From Leifsonia aquatica (GTDB lineage: Bacteria > Actinomycetota > Actinomycetes > Actinomycetales > Microbacteriaceae), in NCBI RefSeq assembly GCF_014190775.1, contig NZ_JACHVP010000004.1, positions 124,001 through 188,000 of the forward strand: DNA of 64,000 nucleotides, in the 5' to 3' direction. The notes beneath the pieces were generated by a model that had not been told where the DNA came from, made no database searches, and saw nothing but the letters and a program-made list of their open reading frames with translations. Position numbers and translations under genes: made by a program. This document shows, in pieces, positions 42,242-48,161 of the stretch (its first letter is position 1; each line of letters starts with the position of its first letter).

Positions 42242-43513
42242 CTACCGGCACTGCCCCGCGACGGCGATCTGCTCGTCGCTGGGACGCCCGTAAGCCTCGA
42301 TGCCAGAGCCGCCGGTGTCGAAGCCCATGGCGATCGCCCAGGCTGTCGCCCACATCTCATCGTCCTCATTGAAGGTGGAGCTCCGGAAGAGCGCGTCGCA
42401 CTCGGGTCGCACGACCTGAGCGTGGCCGACCTCGTGGGTGACGAGCGCTCGCGCGTCGACGTCGCCGCTCGACCAGCCGTCCTGCAGGGGGAAGTTGAGG
42501 TCGATGGTCGCCCAGCCGCCGTCCTCCCTGTGGTAACTCGTCGTGCCCGAATACCATCCCTCGCCGAGCCCGCTGACCTGGGCGTGCCACTCGAAGTCGA
42601 GGGTGACGCCGTGCGCGATGGACCGCGCGTATTCCTCGATCTGCGCTCGCACGGGGTAGGCCGGGTCCTGCCTTGCCGCCAGCCCCGCGGTGTTCGCGGC
42701 ATCCACTCCATCGATCGCCGCGATGACCTGCACGAGGCCGGCGCCGCCGAACGTCGAGGTCGTCACCCCGGCCCCGCCGGCATCGATCGCGTGCCGCAGC
42801 CCGATCTTGCTGGCGTAGGTGGCGGCGTCGTCGGCGGTCATGACCTGCTCGCCGTGGGCCTTCAGCTCCGCGTAGACCGCGTCCGCGCTCGCGTTCAGAG
42901 CCTTCTGCGCCGCGTCGAGCGATGCCAGGTCGGCGGCGCGTGTGCGGCGGTCGGCATTCTCGTCCCGTGTCAGCGTCCGTTTGGCCGCGACGTCGGCGAT
43001 GACCGTCCAGGGCATCAGATCGGCGCTCGGCGACGACACCGTCGGCGGATCGAACCGCACGGGATCGAGTCCGGCGGTCGCCGCCTCCAGCTTCGTCCGG
43101 GCATCGGCGAGTGCGGCCGCCGTCGCCTCTCCGAGGTAGGCCGGCCGGGCGTGGTCGGTGAACTCCTTCATCGAGGTGACCGAGTACTTCGCCTTGCTCA
43201 GCGCGGTCCCGCGCGCATCGGTCACCTCCGCCAGCGCCTTCGAAGCGGCCGTGGCCTCCTGATAGGCGACGGCCGTCCGGGAGGTCGCATACGCGTGCCA
43301 CCCCCACCCGACTCCGGCGATCGCTCCGGCCGAGAGCAGTACCGACGCGACGATCCCGAGCACGAGGCCGTGCCGACGACGCTTCGCAGGTACCGCAGAA
43401 GGATCGCCCGGACCGTCGCTGTCGCTCTCGCTCGCGACCACGGCCTCGGGTATCGGCGTCTCCTCGTCGATCCCGTCGATCGCCGCGCGGCCGCCCGCGT
43501 CCACCTCGTCCAT
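42242..43513 (-). CDS. Membrane-anchored protein with HExxH zinc-peptidase motif
   Basis: 423 residues. An acidic cytoplasmic N-terminus (about 1-45) ends in KRRRH, followed by one membrane segment (about 50-72) and a long helical extracytoplasmic region. A C-terminal domain has THEVGH (HExxH at 360-364); EMWATAWAIAMGF about 30 residues later may supply the third ligand. This looks like a gluzincin-type peptidase, but no named family is claimed. GGGGGAG precedes ATG 43513; ATG 43564 lacks a site. Divergent from the racemase/ligase operon, so it may act on the cell wall. It is not a VanX/VanY-type peptidase. Confidence 0.7.
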   Translation of the reverse strand: MDEVDAGGRAAIDGIDEETPIPEAVVASESDSDGPGDPSAVPAKRRRHGLVLGIVASVLLSAGAIAGVGWGWHAYATSRTAVAYQEATAASKALAEVTDARGTALSKAKYSVTSMKEFTDHARPAYLGEATAAALADARTKLEAATAGLDPVRFDPPTVSSPSADLMPWTVIADVAAKRTLTRDENADRRTRAADLASLDAAQKALNASADAVYAELKAHGEQVMTADDAATYASKIGLRHAIDAGGAGVTTSTFGGAGLVQVIAAIDGVDAANTAGLAARQDPAYPVRAQIEEYARSIAHGVTLDFEWHAQVSGLGEGWYSGTTSYHREDGGWATIDLNFPLQDGWSSGDVDARALVTHEVGHAQVVRPECDALFRSSTFNEDDEMWATAWAIAMGFDTGGSGIEAYGRPSDEQIAVAGQCR

Positions 43514-43530
43514 GTGCTCCCCCGTCACGC

Positions 43531-43551
43531 GCACCGCCTCCTCGGCGGTGC
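43531..43551 (-). promoter_or_regulatory. Leader hairpin in front of the HExxH gene
   Basis: Perfect 8-bp stem GCACCGCC / GGCGGTGC with a 5-nt loop, just upstream of the ribosome binding site of the minus-strand gene. It could limit ribosome access. The rest of the 271-bp divergent gap up to 43784 shows no clear promoter pair. Confidence 0.4.
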
Positions 43552-43784
43552 GGCATACCGTCATCAAAGATAGGACACCGTTGCGCTCCCACCCCGCCGC
43601 GGCTCCACCCCTTTCCGAGGGTCCGCCGCACGCGGTGATCGCCCGCGGTACGCAGATGGATCTCGCCCTCGCGGATGAAGCACGTCAACCGCTCGGATGA
43701 CGATCCCGGCCCCGAAACCCGGAACGCTGAAGCCATGGGAAACGGGATGGTGCGACGGGGCGTCGATCGTGAGCGGGTCGGTTG

Positions 43785-44960
43785 ATGGCCTGGACATCGG
43801 AGCTGGTCGTGCACGACGAGGCGATCCGGGCGAACACGGCGTACTTCGCGTCCGCCACGGGCGGTCGGCTGATGGCGGTGCTGAAGGCCGACGCGTTCGG
43901 GCACGGGGCGATCGCGCACTCGGTCCTGGAGGCCGGCGCCACCTCCATCGGCGTCACCTCCATCGACGAGGCGCTCGCCCTGCGTGCCGACGGGGTGAGC
44001 GCGCCCATCCTGAGCTGGCTCAACCCGGTCGACGCCGACTTCGCCGCCGCGGTGCTCGCGGATGTCGACCTCGCGGTGTCGAGCCCCGTGCTGCTGCACG
44101 CGGTCGCGCAGACGGCGGCACGGCTCGGGCGGCGCGCTCGCGTGCACCTGAACATCGATGTCGGCATGGCCAGGGAGGGCGCGCCCGTCGAAGCGTGGCC
44201 GGCGCTGTGCGCGATGGCCCGCGAGCTGGAGCACCTGGGCTCGCTCCACGTGGTCGGGGTCATGGCGCACATGTCGTGCGCAGACCGGCCCGGCCATCCC
44301 CAGAACCGACGCGAACGACTGCTCTTCGAAAACGCCGTCCGAACGGCGCGGCGTCGCGGGCTCGCGCCGTCGGTCACGCACCTCGCCGCGACCGCCGCCA
44401 CGCTGACCGGAGTCGCGGAGGGCTTCGAGTTGCACCGCATCGGGGCGGGGCTGTTCGGAATCGACCCGTCGGGCACCTCCCGCGAGCTCCTGCCGGCGCT
44501 CTCCCTGACCACGCACGTCGTCACGTCGCGGGAGGTCGGGCCGGGGACCGGCATCGGCTACGGGCTCGACCATGTCGCCGAGCGGCGCACGCACCTCGCT
44601 CTGCTCCCGCTCGGATACGGCGATGGACTGCCCCGTGCGGCGTCCGAGCGCGCCGACGTGCTCGTGCGCGGCCGCCGCAGGCCCCTGGTCGGCCGGTTCT
44701 CGATGGACATGGTCGTCGTGGACACCGGGGAGGAGGAGGTCGCACCCGGCGAACCGGTCACGGTGTTCGGTCCCGGCGCGCACGGCGAGCCCACGGTCGC
44801 CGAGTGGGCCGGCTGGGCGGACACGATCGAGCACGAGATCGTCACGCGAGTGGGGAGCCGGGTGGCGCGCGTCCATCGCACCTCGACCACCGAGACGACA
44901 GAGACGGGCCGGACGACCCAGACGCCCGCGTCGACCCGTCAGGAGGCGGTCGATGCGTGA
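43785..44960 (+). CDS. Alanine racemase-family enzyme (possible VanT-type racemase)
   Basis: 391 residues. PLP lysine in AVLKADAFGHG (Lys34), GYGDGLPR and the catalytic Tyr in GIGYGLD (Tyr259) are conserved, so a PLP amino-acid racemase is secure. Substrate is not: it sits in an operon with a D-Ala-D-X ligase and an acyltransferase-3 membrane protein. VanT serine racemases join exactly such a membrane domain to a racemase domain. L-Ala and L-Ser are both plausible. The C-terminal 25 residues are Thr-rich. No clear Shine-Dalgarno before ATG 43785. Confidence 0.85.
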   Translation: MAWTSELVVHDEAIRANTAYFASATGGRLMAVLKADAFGHGAIAHSVLEAGATSIGVTSIDEALALRADGVSAPILSWLNPVDADFAAAVLADVDLAVSSPVLLHAVAQTAARLGRRARVHLNIDVGMAREGAPVEAWPALCAMARELEHLGSLHVVGVMAHMSCADRPGHPQNRRERLLFENAVRTARRRGLAPSVTHLAATAATLTGVAEGFELHRIGAGLFGIDPSGTSRELLPALSLTTHVVTSREVGPGTGIGYGLDHVAERRTHLALLPLGYGDGLPRAASERADVLVRGRRRPLVGRFSMDMVVVDTGEEEVAPGEPVTVFGPGAHGEPTVAEWAGWADTIEHEIVTRVGSRVARVHRTSTTETTETGRTTQTPASTRQEAVDA

Positions 44961-45942
44961 GCGGGAGGCGCTGCGGGTGGCGGTCATCGGCGGCGGGGCG
45001 AACGACGAGCACGACGTCTCGCTGGCATCGGCCGCGGCCGTCACGCGGGCCCTGCGCGCGCTCGGCCACGACGCGGTCCCGGTGACCATCGACCGATTCG
45101 GAGCATGGCTCGATCCCGACGGCGTCACCACGTCGGCGGTGGAGGCCATCGCGCTCCTCACCGCCTGCGATGTCGCCTTCCCGGTGCTGCACGGGGAGAA
45201 CGGGGAGGACGGCTCGATCGCCGGCCTCCTGAGCATGACCGGCGTGCCGTTCGCCGGCTCGCCGGTGGGCGCCGGGGCGGTCGCCATGGACAAGTGGGTC
45301 ACGAAGCTTGTCGCGGAGGCGATCGGGGTGCGCACCGCTCCCGCGGTTCTCGTCCGAGGGTCGGGCGATACCGCGCCCCTCACGCTGGACCCGCCGCTCG
45401 TGGTCAAGCCGACGACGGGTGGGTCGAGCAACGGGGTCGCGGTGGTCCGGGAGGCCGCTGATCTGGGCGCGGCGGTCGGTCTGGCCCTCGCGGCGGGTCG
45501 TGCCGCCCTGGTCGAGACCTTCGTCGTGGGCCGTGAGATCGACATCGCCCTCTTCCGCGACGCCGGCGGAATCCTCCGCGCCGGCGCCACGCTCGAGATC
45601 GGCGTCGCCGACGGCGCTGTGTTCGACCGCGAGCAGAAGTACGACGGCACCGCCTCCTTCACCCTGCCCGCGCGGATCACGGCGGACGAGCACGCCGAGA
45701 TCGAGAGGGCCGCACGCGCCCTCTACGACACCCTCGGCTGCGCCGGAGTCGCCCGGTTCGACTTCTTCGTGACCGCGACGGGCGTGGTGCTCAACGAGGT
45801 GAACACGACGCCCGGATTCACCGAGGCATCGCAGGTGCCGCGGATGTACGCCGCCCTCGGACTCGGCTACGAACAGCTGGTCGAGGCGCTGCTCGACGCG
45901 GCCCTCACCGAGAGCCCCACGTCGGTGGAGATCGCTCGATGA
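44953..45942 (+). CDS. D-alanine--D-alanine ligase family protein (D-Ala-D-X ligase)
   Basis: 329 residues, ATP-grasp fold. HGENGEDG (80-87), KPTTGGSSNGV, RFDFF and NEVNTTPGFTEAS are diagnostic. The omega-loop region reads EQKYDGTASFTLPARI (about 228-242). It keeps the Lys-Tyr pair but lacks the second downstream Tyr usual in housekeeping Ddl, more like VanC/VanG D-Ala-D-Ser ligases. The second substrate could thus be D-Ser or another D-amino acid. AGGAGG precedes the ATG; the start overlaps the racemase stop by 8 nt. Confidence 0.87.
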   Translation: MREREALRVAVIGGGANDEHDVSLASAAAVTRALRALGHDAVPVTIDRFGAWLDPDGVTTSAVEAIALLTACDVAFPVLHGENGEDGSIAGLLSMTGVPFAGSPVGAGAVAMDKWVTKLVAEAIGVRTAPAVLVRGSGDTAPLTLDPPLVVKPTTGGSSNGVAVVREAADLGAAVGLALAAGRAALVETFVVGREIDIALFRDAGGILRAGATLEIGVADGAVFDREQKYDGTASFTLPARITADEHAEIERAARALYDTLGCAGVARFDFFVTATGVVLNEVNTTPGFTEASQVPRMYAALGLGYEQLVEALLDAALTESPTSVEIAR

Positions 45943-48092
45943 CGGATGCCACGTCGACCCCGGCCGCACGCGAGGGCTGGGGCGACGCGCTCAAGGGAGT
46001 GCTCATCGCGCTCGTCGTGCTGTGGCACGTGATCATGAAGAGCTATCTGAACATCGATTGGCAGCTCGGGGTGCCGGTCCCCGGCGGGTGGGGACTGTTC
46101 GGCGACCTGATCTGGCCGTTCCTGATGCCCCTCTTCCTGCTCGTCTCGGGATACTTCGCCGCGAACGCCTTCACCCGCCCGTGGGCGGTCGTCGCCCGCA
46201 CGCGCGTCGTCCGGTTCCTCTACCTCTACCTGCTGTGGTCGCTCATCCACATGGCGGCGATGTGGGCATTCCCCGACTTCCCCACACTGGTCCCCCGCGG
46301 CGTCGCGGAGTTCGTCGAGTCCGTCACGATCAGCCCGCCGAACACCTGGTACCTCTACGCACTCGCGCTGTACTTCCTGGTCGCCAAGGCTCTCTCGCGT
46401 CTCCCCGCGTGGATACCCATCGCCGCAGCCGGCATCCTGTCGATCGTCGTCGCGGCCGGTTACGTGGAGGTCGTCAGCAATCGCGGTTCCCTGCTCTACA
46501 ACTTCACGTTCTTCCTGCTCGGGCTGCACCTCGCGCCGCAGATCCGCCGGCTGGTCGACCGCCTGCGGCTCTCGATCGCCCTTCTGCTCGTCGCCGCCTA
46601 CCTGGCCGTCTTCGCCGCGATGCGGCTCACCGGCACCGAGACCGTGCCCGGGGTGTGGCCGCTCGTCTCGGTCGTCGGCGTGACGGCCGGGCTCGCCGTC
46701 GCGCCGATCATCGCGCGGATGCGGCTCGTCGGGCCGGGGCTGGCCTGGCTGGGGCGCCGCAGCCTCCCGATCTACCTGATCCACATGCCGCTGCTCGCCC
46801 TGGCCGACTTCCTGCTGGCGGGCTGGCTGTCGGACTCCCGGGTCGCCGTGCAGCTGGTGGCGGCCGTGGTGCTGCCCGTGATCCTCACGGCCGTCCTGAT
46901 CGCCGGGAGCCTCCTGCTGTACCGCCTGCTGCTGCGGGATGGGGCGACCTGGCTGTTCGACCTCCCGCGCTGGGCGACGAGGACCGCTCCGGGCGCCGGC
47001 CGGAGGTGGCGCGCGCCGTGGCGGACCGCGATGGCCGTCGTCCTGCTCGTGGCGTGCGGTCTCGTGACCGCCGGAGCGACGGCGATCCCCGGCTGCGGGC
47101 CGACCCCGCCCACGCAAGCCGCCGCGCGCCCGGGAGAGGTCACCATCGGCGCCACCGGGGATCTGCTCATCCACGACATCGGTCACGGGGTGCCGGAGGA
47201 CGGCGGGGCGCACCACTTCGACGCGGTCCGCCCCTGGTTCACCGGCGACCTCGTGACGGGGAACCTGGAGCAGGTGATCTCCGACGACACCGGATACGAC
47301 AAGTGCGGCACCGACGCGGACTGTCTCGCCTTCCGCAGCGACCCCGCGACCGCACAGTACTTCGCCGGGTTCGATCTCCTGAACATGGCGAACAACCACA
47401 CCAAGGACTTCGGCGACGAGGGCTACGCGAACACCCGGGAGAACCTCGCCGCGAACGGCATCCGCGCCGTGGGCGACCGCGACGAGATCGTGTGCACCCG
47501 GATCGGCGACACCACCGTCGCCATGATCGGCTTCGCCCCGTACCAGGGCTTCAACCGGGTGACCGATCTGCGGCACGTCCGGAAGGTGGTGGCCGCGGCC
47601 GCGGCATCGGCGGATGTGGTGGTGGTGCAGGCGCACATGGGCGCCGAGGGTCCGAACGCGAACGCCGTCACCCCCGGCGTCGAGCGGATGTACGGCGAGA
47701 ATCGGGGCGACCCCGTCGCGTTCGCCCACGCCGCGGTCGACGCGGGAGCGGACCTCGTGCTCGGGCACGGGCCGCACACGCTGCGCGGCGCGGAGTTCTA
47801 CAAGGGACGGCTGATCGCGTACAGCCTCGGCAACTTCGGGGGCGGCGGCGTCTTCGGCGCCGAGCAGGCGACCCGCTACGGGGTCTACCTCGATGTGAGC
47901 CTCCACCCCGACGGCACCTTCGCGCGCGGCCGGATGCGCTCCATCCACTTCGCTTTCGAGGGCGGCGCACCCCTCCCGGACCCGGACGGCCGGGCCGCCG
48001 CGCTGGTGGACGACTTCAGCCGCCGCGACTTCCCTATGACGGCACCCCGCATCGGCGAGGACGGCACGCTCTCGCCACCGGGCCCGCGCTGA
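45939..48092 (+). CDS. Fusion of acyltransferase-3 membrane domain and CapA-like metallophosphatase-fold domain
   Basis: 717 residues. Residues about 14-335 form an acyltransferase-3 domain with roughly ten membrane segments (conserved His in VVLWH, residue 30). After a further membrane segment (about 363-385) comes a CapA/PgsA-like domain (about 401-690): IGATGDLL, TGNLEQVIS, NMANNHTKDFGDEGY, QAHMGAEGPN and LGHGPHTLRGAEFYKGRLIAYSLGNF. Acyltransferase-3 proteins modify or carry wall and sugar substrates; CapA proteins act in poly-gamma-glutamate or capsule formation outside the cell. The start overlaps the ligase stop (ATGA), so one operon makes D-amino acid, D-dipeptide and this membrane protein. 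Joint function unknown. Confidence 0.85.
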   Translation: MTDATSTPAAREGWGDALKGVLIALVVLWHVIMKSYLNIDWQLGVPVPGGWGLFGDLIWPFLMPLFLLVSGYFAANAFTRPWAVVARTRVVRFLYLYLLWSLIHMAAMWAFPDFPTLVPRGVAEFVESVTISPPNTWYLYALALYFLVAKALSRLPAWIPIAAAGILSIVVAAGYVEVVSNRGSLLYNFTFFLLGLHLAPQIRRLVDRLRLSIALLLVAAYLAVFAAMRLTGTETVPGVWPLVSVVGVTAGLAVAPIIARMRLVGPGLAWLGRRSLPIYLIHMPLLALADFLLAGWLSDSRVAVQLVAAVVLPVILTAVLIAGSLLLYRLLLRDGATWLFDLPRWATRTAPGAGRRWRAPWRTAMAVVLLVACGLVTAGATAIPGCGPTPPTQAAARPGEVTIGATGDLLIHDIGHGVPEDGGAHHFDAVRPWFTGDLVTGNLEQVISDDTGYDKCGTDADCLAFRSDPATAQYFAGFDLLNMANNHTKDFGDEGYANTRENLAANGIRAVGDRDEIVCTRIGDTTVAMIGFAPYQGFNRVTDLRHVRKVVAAAAASADVVVVQAHMGAEGPNANAVTPGVERMYGENRGDPVAFAHAAVDAGADLVLGHGPHTLRGAEFYKGRLIAYSLGNFGGGGVFGAEQATRYGVYLDVSLHPDGTFARGRMRSIHFAFEGGAPLPDPDGRAAALVDDFSRRDFPMTAPRIGEDGTLSPPGPR

Positions 48093-48098
48093 TCAGCC

Positions 48099-48161
48099 GC
48101 CGAGGTTCACGTTGTGGCGCTCATTCCGGGCGGAATGAGCGCCACAACGTGAACGTCAGGC
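48099..48161. repeat. Intergenic palindrome, family A copy 3 (best preserved)
   Basis: A perfect 48-nt palindrome core (48106-48153; 23-bp arms, GG centre) within the family A repeat. It runs into the end of the convergent kinase gene: that gene's stop codon (48156-48158) lies inside the repeat. Strong two-way terminator candidate. Confidence 0.88.

Follow-up and report, generated by a model that had tools for sequence, protein, structure and literature searches.

In VanT, an acyltransferase-3 (AT3) membrane domain is fused to a serine racemase, and its partners are the D-Ala-D-Ser ligases VanC, VanE and VanG. Here we describe a comparable set of genes in a 64,000-nucleotide stretch of Leifsonia aquatica (contig NZ_JACHVP010000004.1, positions 124,001 to 188,000; the window). 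It comprises genes for an alanine-racemase-type enzyme (alr), a Ddl-family ligase (ddl) and a membrane protein that joins an AT3 domain to a CapA domain (AT3-CapA). As in the VanC/VanE/VanG operons with VanT, racemase, Ddl-family ligase and AT3 membrane domain form one unit. In the window, however, the racemase is separate and AT3 is fused to CapA, the ligase falls outside the D-Ala-D-Ser families, no VanXY is encoded in the window, and neither VanX, VanY or VanXY nor VanRS was found near the trio. VanRS- and VanY-type genes, as known from VanC/VanE/VanG operons, accompany two relatives of the trio (L030 and L109). We lean towards the reading that the trio is an apparently reduced member of a group of actinobacterial van-like cassettes, that it is predicted to make D-Ala-D-X (X being likely D-Ser) for the peptidoglycan, and that AT3-CapA probably works at the membrane on what the two enzymes make.

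The pdx operon of Micromonosporales consists of PALP, Ddl and VanX genes with VanRS (PMC8698665; here and below, statements on cited papers apply to the portions that were accessible). It shares with the loci described below a racemase-type enzyme and a ligase beside van-like regulators, and AT3 proteins of the same subfamily occur beside or fused to PALP. It differs in having PALP where the window has alr, and in its ligase, which carries Met at the column of Gln294 and forms its own clade. The accessible main text mentions no AT3 gene, Microbacterium or Leifsonia, and the word 'acyltransferase' occurs there once, in a reference. The same paper reports rare clusters of vanRSY, a racemase and Ddl in Allonocardiopsis, Murinocardiopsis and Geodermatophilales, for which D-Ala-D-Ser was suggested. 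We found matching vanY-alr-ddl runs with VanRS-type genes in L030, L109, L129, L144, L152 and L156, whereas the accessible text (PMC8698665) mentions no AT3 or CapA partner for the rare clusters.

The ligase and its genomic context

The exact coordinates of the three-gene run on the forward strand were confirmed (Table 1), with overlaps of 8 nucleotides (nt) between alr and ddl and 4 nt (ATGA) between ddl and AT3-CapA. Pfam identified Ala_racemase_N/C, Dala_Dala_lig_N/C and Acyl_transf_3 plus PGA_cap, respectively, and no dehydrogenase (VanH) among the three genes; NCBIfam and PDB sequence searches gave the alanine racemase, D-Ala-D-Ala ligase, Acyl_transf_3 and PGA_cap families. The overlaps and gene families given in a preliminary description of the sequence were thereby borne out. 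That description had also noted a ligase omega loop with Lys-Tyr but without the second Tyr of housekeeping Ddl, and the alignment agreed: the loop, REQKYDGTASFTLPA, retains Lys229-Tyr230 and has Phe in place of the second aromatic residue, with 8 residues between KY and PA compared with 10 in the genome's own housekeeping ligase.

In a maximum-likelihood tree of 82 ligase rows (long branches such as L019, L028 and HKL209 were flagged), the window ligase fell within a seven-row clade of AT3-CapA-linked ligases (support 100/100), nested in 39 alr-linked rows (100/99). The full set of 45 alr-linked rows was united in 78% of bootstrap trees (74/90). Separate clades were formed by the PALP-linked and the VanA/B rows, and the housekeeping ligases did not group with the window ligase. 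This phylogeny, which had been proposed as a check, thus sets the enzyme apart from both housekeeping and VanA/B ligases. Column 294 was Gln in 45/45 alr-linked rows and in 0/37 others, being Met in 15/15 PALP-linked rows, Arg in 3/3 VanA/B-type rows and, in the other 19, Met (16), Ile, Ala or Leu. We take this column to be equivalent to DdlB Leu282 and VanC2 Arg322. We define alr-linked van-like cassettes by a ligase of this Gln294 clade with alr directly upstream, and the window has both.

A D-Ala-D-Ser ligase of the VanC/E/G family was rejected, as the window ligase scored far under the cut-offs of all three models (216 bits against 520 for NF000207, 215.7 against 495 for VanG, 182.1 against 650 for VanC). 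A D-Ala-D-Lac enzyme of the VanHAX type was likewise rejected, since KY is kept where VanA/VanB rows differ. The structure model (mean predicted local distance difference test score 86.9) matched Ddl, VanA and VanG structures about equally and did not discriminate between them. No residue of the window ligase points to the use of D-Ser.

With the ligase as query, a search of 394 genomes of the class (threshold >265 bits) returned 29 other genomes, all of whose loci were read; they were picked by ligase similarity, not by neighbours. The alr gene lay directly upstream of the ligase gene in all 29. A vanX-type gene preceded alr in 21/29; we use this label for genes that resemble, by tblastn, the M15 protein of L126, and Pfam was run on that protein alone. 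In five loci vanY occurred together with response-regulator and sensor-kinase genes (with queries taken from the loci themselves for L144 and L158). Three had neither set (L141, L146, L154), with a vanY-like match in L154 about 2 kb away on the opposite strand.

Complete sets were present in L030 (= L108, Frigoribacterium sp. PhB116) and L109 (G141), where kinase and regulator genes diverge from vanY-alr-ddl-AT3CapA. The best NCBIfam model of the regulators was VanR-O (414 and 421 bits, against 169 and 181 for the runners-up) and that of the kinases VanS-O (362 and 389 bits; next 144 and 161), all below the curated cut-offs of 505 and 720, respectively. The trio-linked VanY passed the Pfam cut-off of PF02557. 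L129 has kinase, regulator, vanY, alr and ddl as in L030 and L109, but its AT3 is stand-alone. Beside these, the window locus appears reduced, having apparently lost, or never had, regulators and peptidase. The VanT/VanC-like rearranged pathway proposed in the preliminary description is partly supported: by the context (VanR-O/VanS-O-like proteins with VanY, or a vanX-type gene, in relatives; AT3-PALP fusions, below), but not by the ligase, which lies outside the VanC/E/G families.

Other arrangements were also seen. In L119 (7876-11162) and L160 (3884-7311), alr and ddl share one frame (728 aa and up to 779 aa), behind which a different AT3 is encoded; this arrangement was read on a mobilizable Streptomyces plasmid (L119) and in G733. 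G583 (L136, L214) has a vanX-alr-ddl run plus a VanA-type ligase (SRYP, VanA-like omega loop), and both ligase kinds can therefore co-exist in one genome.

Additional alr and ddl copies

In the source genome (G000) we counted three alr and three ddl copies (matches >140 bits). The racemase and ligase of the trio are therefore extra copies; the housekeeping ones, read from translations, occupy their usual places (acpS-alr and gpsA-ddl-thiL). These copy numbers and the separate clade of the ligase rule out that the trio holds the sole housekeeping Alr and Ddl. The preliminary description would have been contradicted by sole copies that group with housekeeping enzymes in an unconserved gene order; copy counts, ligase tree and the recurrence reported below all show the opposite. 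A short racemase-like frame (237 aa; L021 6691-7404), flanked by parE/murT as read, directly precedes the second alr, and the third, very divergent Ddl-like protein (L019 7712-8806), a long branch in the ligase tree, is encoded beside aminotransferase and trx genes and murJ, as read.

Extra copies might simply provide a back-up supply of D-Ala and D-Ala-D-Ala, for example when D-cycloserine or some other compound inhibits the housekeeping enzymes, with AT3-CapA a loosely associated envelope protein. This is the chief rival, although we consider it unlikely. By score the two enzymes are indeed of the Alr and Ddl types: the racemase exceeds the cut-off of the equivalog model for alanine racemase, TIGR00492 (234.4 bits, cut-off 168), and the ligase that of the D-Ala-D-Ala subfamily model, TIGR01205. 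The ligase also retains the equivalents of DdlB Ser150 and Tyr216, which have been tied to D-Ala-D-Ala-only enzymes, and extra Ddl copies can confer D-cycloserine resistance with unaltered specificity (PMC7691350). The window trio moreover lacks vanX and vanY. The relatives are hard to square with a back-up role, because the D-Ala-D-Ala-dipeptidase-type enzyme encoded in the same gene run in 21/29 of them would undo the ligase's product. In addition, VanR-O/VanS-O-like regulators adjoin two trio loci, and Gln294 is fixed in the sampled clade but absent from housekeeping rows.

Recurrence and domain plan of AT3-CapA

At least 14 distinct AT3-CapA loci were pooled from a genus set (28 genomes including our own), a family set (398 genomes) and a genome-contig scan. 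Full-length AT3-CapA was encoded in 4/28 genomes of the genus set, with a weak match in a fifth, and 8/398 genomes of the family set matched both AT3 and CapA domains, in one or two pieces. Among the matches listed, to which all counts over 14 loci and seven full trios refer, alr lay upstream in a shared run of genes in 9/14 loci and the order alr-ddl-AT3CapA was found in 7/14; the neighbourhood search suggested in the preliminary description thus shows that the three-gene order recurs. The 4-nt overlap of ddl and AT3-CapA was retained in 6/7 full trios. Agromyces soli has alr-AT3CapA with ddl divergent beside it, and G310 has alr-AT3CapA without ddl and a separate alr-ddl pair elsewhere in the genome.

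The closest named relative of AT3-CapA is from Leifsonia sp. 71-9 (95%). The AT3 domain and the fold of PF01757 acyltransferases are present. Of the AT3 motifs R-x10-H and RxxR (PMC9833829), the first position was Lys in 14, Arg in one and Thr in one of 16 aligned rows, with His in 15/16, and the RxxR-type site was mostly retained, as read by eye. In the relative from Leucobacter luti (P0083), the first-helix His is absent from the AT3 half and the CapA half is still conserved. The extra helix at residues 361-380 is predicted to place CapA outside the membrane, by analogy with AT3-SGNH proteins (PMC9833829). AT3-CapA shares with the acyltransferases OatA and OafB the AT3 domain, an extra transmembrane helix and a (here predicted) extracytoplasmic C-terminal domain; it differs in that this domain is CapA/MslH-like and that Lys replaces the Arg of R-x10-H.

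MslH, the epimerase of the C-terminal Trp of a lasso peptide (PDB 8gq9, 8itg), is a stand-alone cytoplasmic enzyme, and CapA shares 28% identity with it in the aligned part. Pfam, NCBIfam and structure comparison placed CapA in the MslH/PgsA family, with an MslH-type fold and counterparts of the MslH residues Asp11 and His295; against the lasso-peptide MslH model it scored 69.5 bits (cut-off 700). MslH epimerises a peptide C terminus and its family is tied to poly-gamma-glutamate (PMC9266682), so that the trio might, as the preliminary description had also proposed, serve to make an exported peptide or polymer that contains D-amino acids, in which case CapA would have a role like that in the pathways for poly-gamma-glutamate or lasso peptides. 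We found no positive evidence for this beyond the CapA family itself, and regard it as improbable. Neither a peptide precursor nor a synthetase is encoded in the reading frames listed beside the trio (no search aimed at PgsB/PgsC was made), and relatives instead carry VanY/VanX-type genes and Van-type regulators.

AT3 partners in Micromonosporaceae

We searched 220 Micromonosporaceae genomes and read 30 loci picked from the match list, 12 of them because AT3 and PALP adjoin. All 12 contained regulator, kinase, AT3, PALP and a vanX-type gene, 11 also ddl, and in six AT3 and PALP formed a single reading frame. The nearest solved chains of the PALP part were 1v71, a threonine deaminase and serine racemases. 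PALP is likely a serine racemase, and only likely because its best NCBIfam model, below its cut-off, is an ammonia-lyase.

Eight further loci had PALP-ddl-vanX with regulators and without AT3 (three), PALP and vanX only (one), AT3-alr-ddl (L179, L180), AT3 without partners (L181) or ddl-AT3-alr followed by CapA (L182). Ten more AT3 matches comprised ddl-AT3-alr with CapA (L251-L253), AT3 and CapA (L254), alr-ddl-AT3 in the window's order (L258), AT3 with ddl on the opposite strand (L255) and AT3 alone (L256, cut by the contig end, L257, L259 and L260). The CapA of L182 is the C-terminal part of a 625-aa frame (PGA_cap, 233 bits), whose N-terminal half is weakly AT3-like (no match in the Pfam search; 29% to P0094); in L251, an AT3-like protein and a CapA with a lipoprotein-like start are encoded in separate frames. 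Racemase, ligase, AT3 and an extracytoplasmic-looking CapA therefore associate in two families. A predicted nucleoside triphosphatase-like gene on the opposite strand splits ddl-AT3 from alr-CapA in L251 (7467-8888, reverse strand), L252 and L253, and a similar predicted gene follows AT3 in L258.

These associations bear on a further alternative, in which AT3-CapA would modify the surface on its own, as an acyltransferase of the OatA/OafB kind in which CapA replaces SGNH, and would merely share the alr-ddl transcript. Its domain plan fits the AT3, extra helix and extracytoplasmic domain of OafB/OatA (PMC9833829), and at five of the 14 AT3-CapA loci the flanks read contain neither alr nor ddl (L110-L112 of genus g18, Microbacterium oxydans and Microbacterium sp. 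LCT-H2). We nevertheless think it quite unlikely: 9/14 genes lie behind alr, the 4-nt overlap persists in nearly all full trios, van-like operons contain fusions of this AT3 subfamily with PALP, and in Micromonosporaceae CapA is again encoded together with ddl, AT3 and alr.

Proposed pathway

In the favoured reading, a reduced van-like cassette, the racemase would supply a D-amino acid and the ligase, with Gln294 in its second-substrate pocket, would join D-Ala to it. Housekeeping MurF and later enzymes would carry the dipeptide into lipid II, so that the termini would be changed. AT3 may serve the cassette as the AT3 half of VanT does, by acyl transfer or amino-acid supply, and CapA, outside the membrane, would edit the peptide end. 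We propose D-Ser as X because of the parallel with VanT and the PALP partner, not because of the window enzymes. A bolder version makes AT3 a membrane platform for stereochemical editing of precursor ends, whose fusion partner is an Alr-type serine racemase in VanT, a serine-racemase-like PALP in Micromonosporaceae, and here an MslH-type peptide epimerase that would act outside on the terminal residue of D-Ala-D-X stem peptides; such a new kind of glycopeptide-target remodelling at the cell surface seems doubtful to us.

Several results weigh against the favoured reading, besides the family scores and retained Ddl residues, the loci without alr or ddl and the ammonia-lyase match given above. 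The flanks read of the window trio and of its nearest kin (L113, L114, L115) contain no vanX, vanY or vanRS matches. A search of G000 for PF01427 gave no match, and its three PF02557 matches are not linked to the trio; one VanY, of the subfamily shared with the trio-linked VanY (47%, 124 bits), is encoded about 27 kb downstream, beyond the window and unlinked. An AT3 match is missing from 27/29 alr-linked ligase loci, and neither alr nor ddl is near six AT3 relatives of family f24. Of the 21 vanX-type genes, Pfam covered one; the vanX-type and vanY proteins compared with NCBIfam score far under the curated cut-offs, the vanX-type one nearer DdpX than VanX. Finally, the two alr-linked ligase groups are joined with a support of only 74/90.

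Features of the locus

Table 1. Features of the trio and its 3' end, in window positions
Feature	Position	Strand	Remarks
alr-type racemase, 391 aa	43785..44960	+	extra copy besides housekeeping alr; Pfam, TIGR00492
Ddl-family ATP-grasp ligase, 329 aa	44953..45942	+	alr-linked clade; Pfam, NCBIfam, tree, model
ligase omega-loop Lys229-Tyr230	45637..45642	+	KY kept; loop short, without second Tyr
ligase Gln294	45832..45834	+	alignment column Gln in alr-linked rows, Met in PALP-linked and most housekeeping rows, Arg in VanA/VanB-type rows
AT3-CapA fusion protein, 717 aa	45939..48092	+	Pfam, alignment, helix prediction
AT3 membrane domain, residues 9-342	45963..46964	+	Lys19-x10-His30 in first helix, Arg89xxArg92
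extra transmembrane helix (predicted), residues 361-380	47019..47078	+	follows Arg-rich loop 334-360
CapA / MslH-like domain, residues 398-715	47130..48083	+	domain match
inverted repeat, 27 nt, 2-nt loop, 96% complementary	48102..48157	.	terminator-like

The inverted repeat lies directly past the operon and separates the convergent AT3-CapA and pfkB-type genes. The divergent neighbour of alr (42242-43567, reverse strand) encodes 441 aa with a hydrophobic segment and an HEVGH motif, for which the Pfam search found no match; among the loci read it adjoins the trio only in the window and in L113 (75% identity). PGA_cap has a single match in G000, the AT3-CapA gene.

Implications

In the accessible portions of the open-access literature, we found neither AT3 in actinobacterial van-like cassettes nor an AT3-CapA fusion described. 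High-level-resistance mutations fall in the AT3 half of VanT, the function of which 'has not been considered' (PMC12423673, 2025). The AT3 described here recurs with non-homologous racemase-type enzymes and with separately encoded racemases, which allows its role to be probed independently of racemase activity. Should the cassette produce D-Ala-D-Ser or some other terminus, a wide and little-studied range of van-like cassettes for target remodelling would exist in environmental actinobacteria, and the CapA fusion would represent a new type of envelope enzyme.

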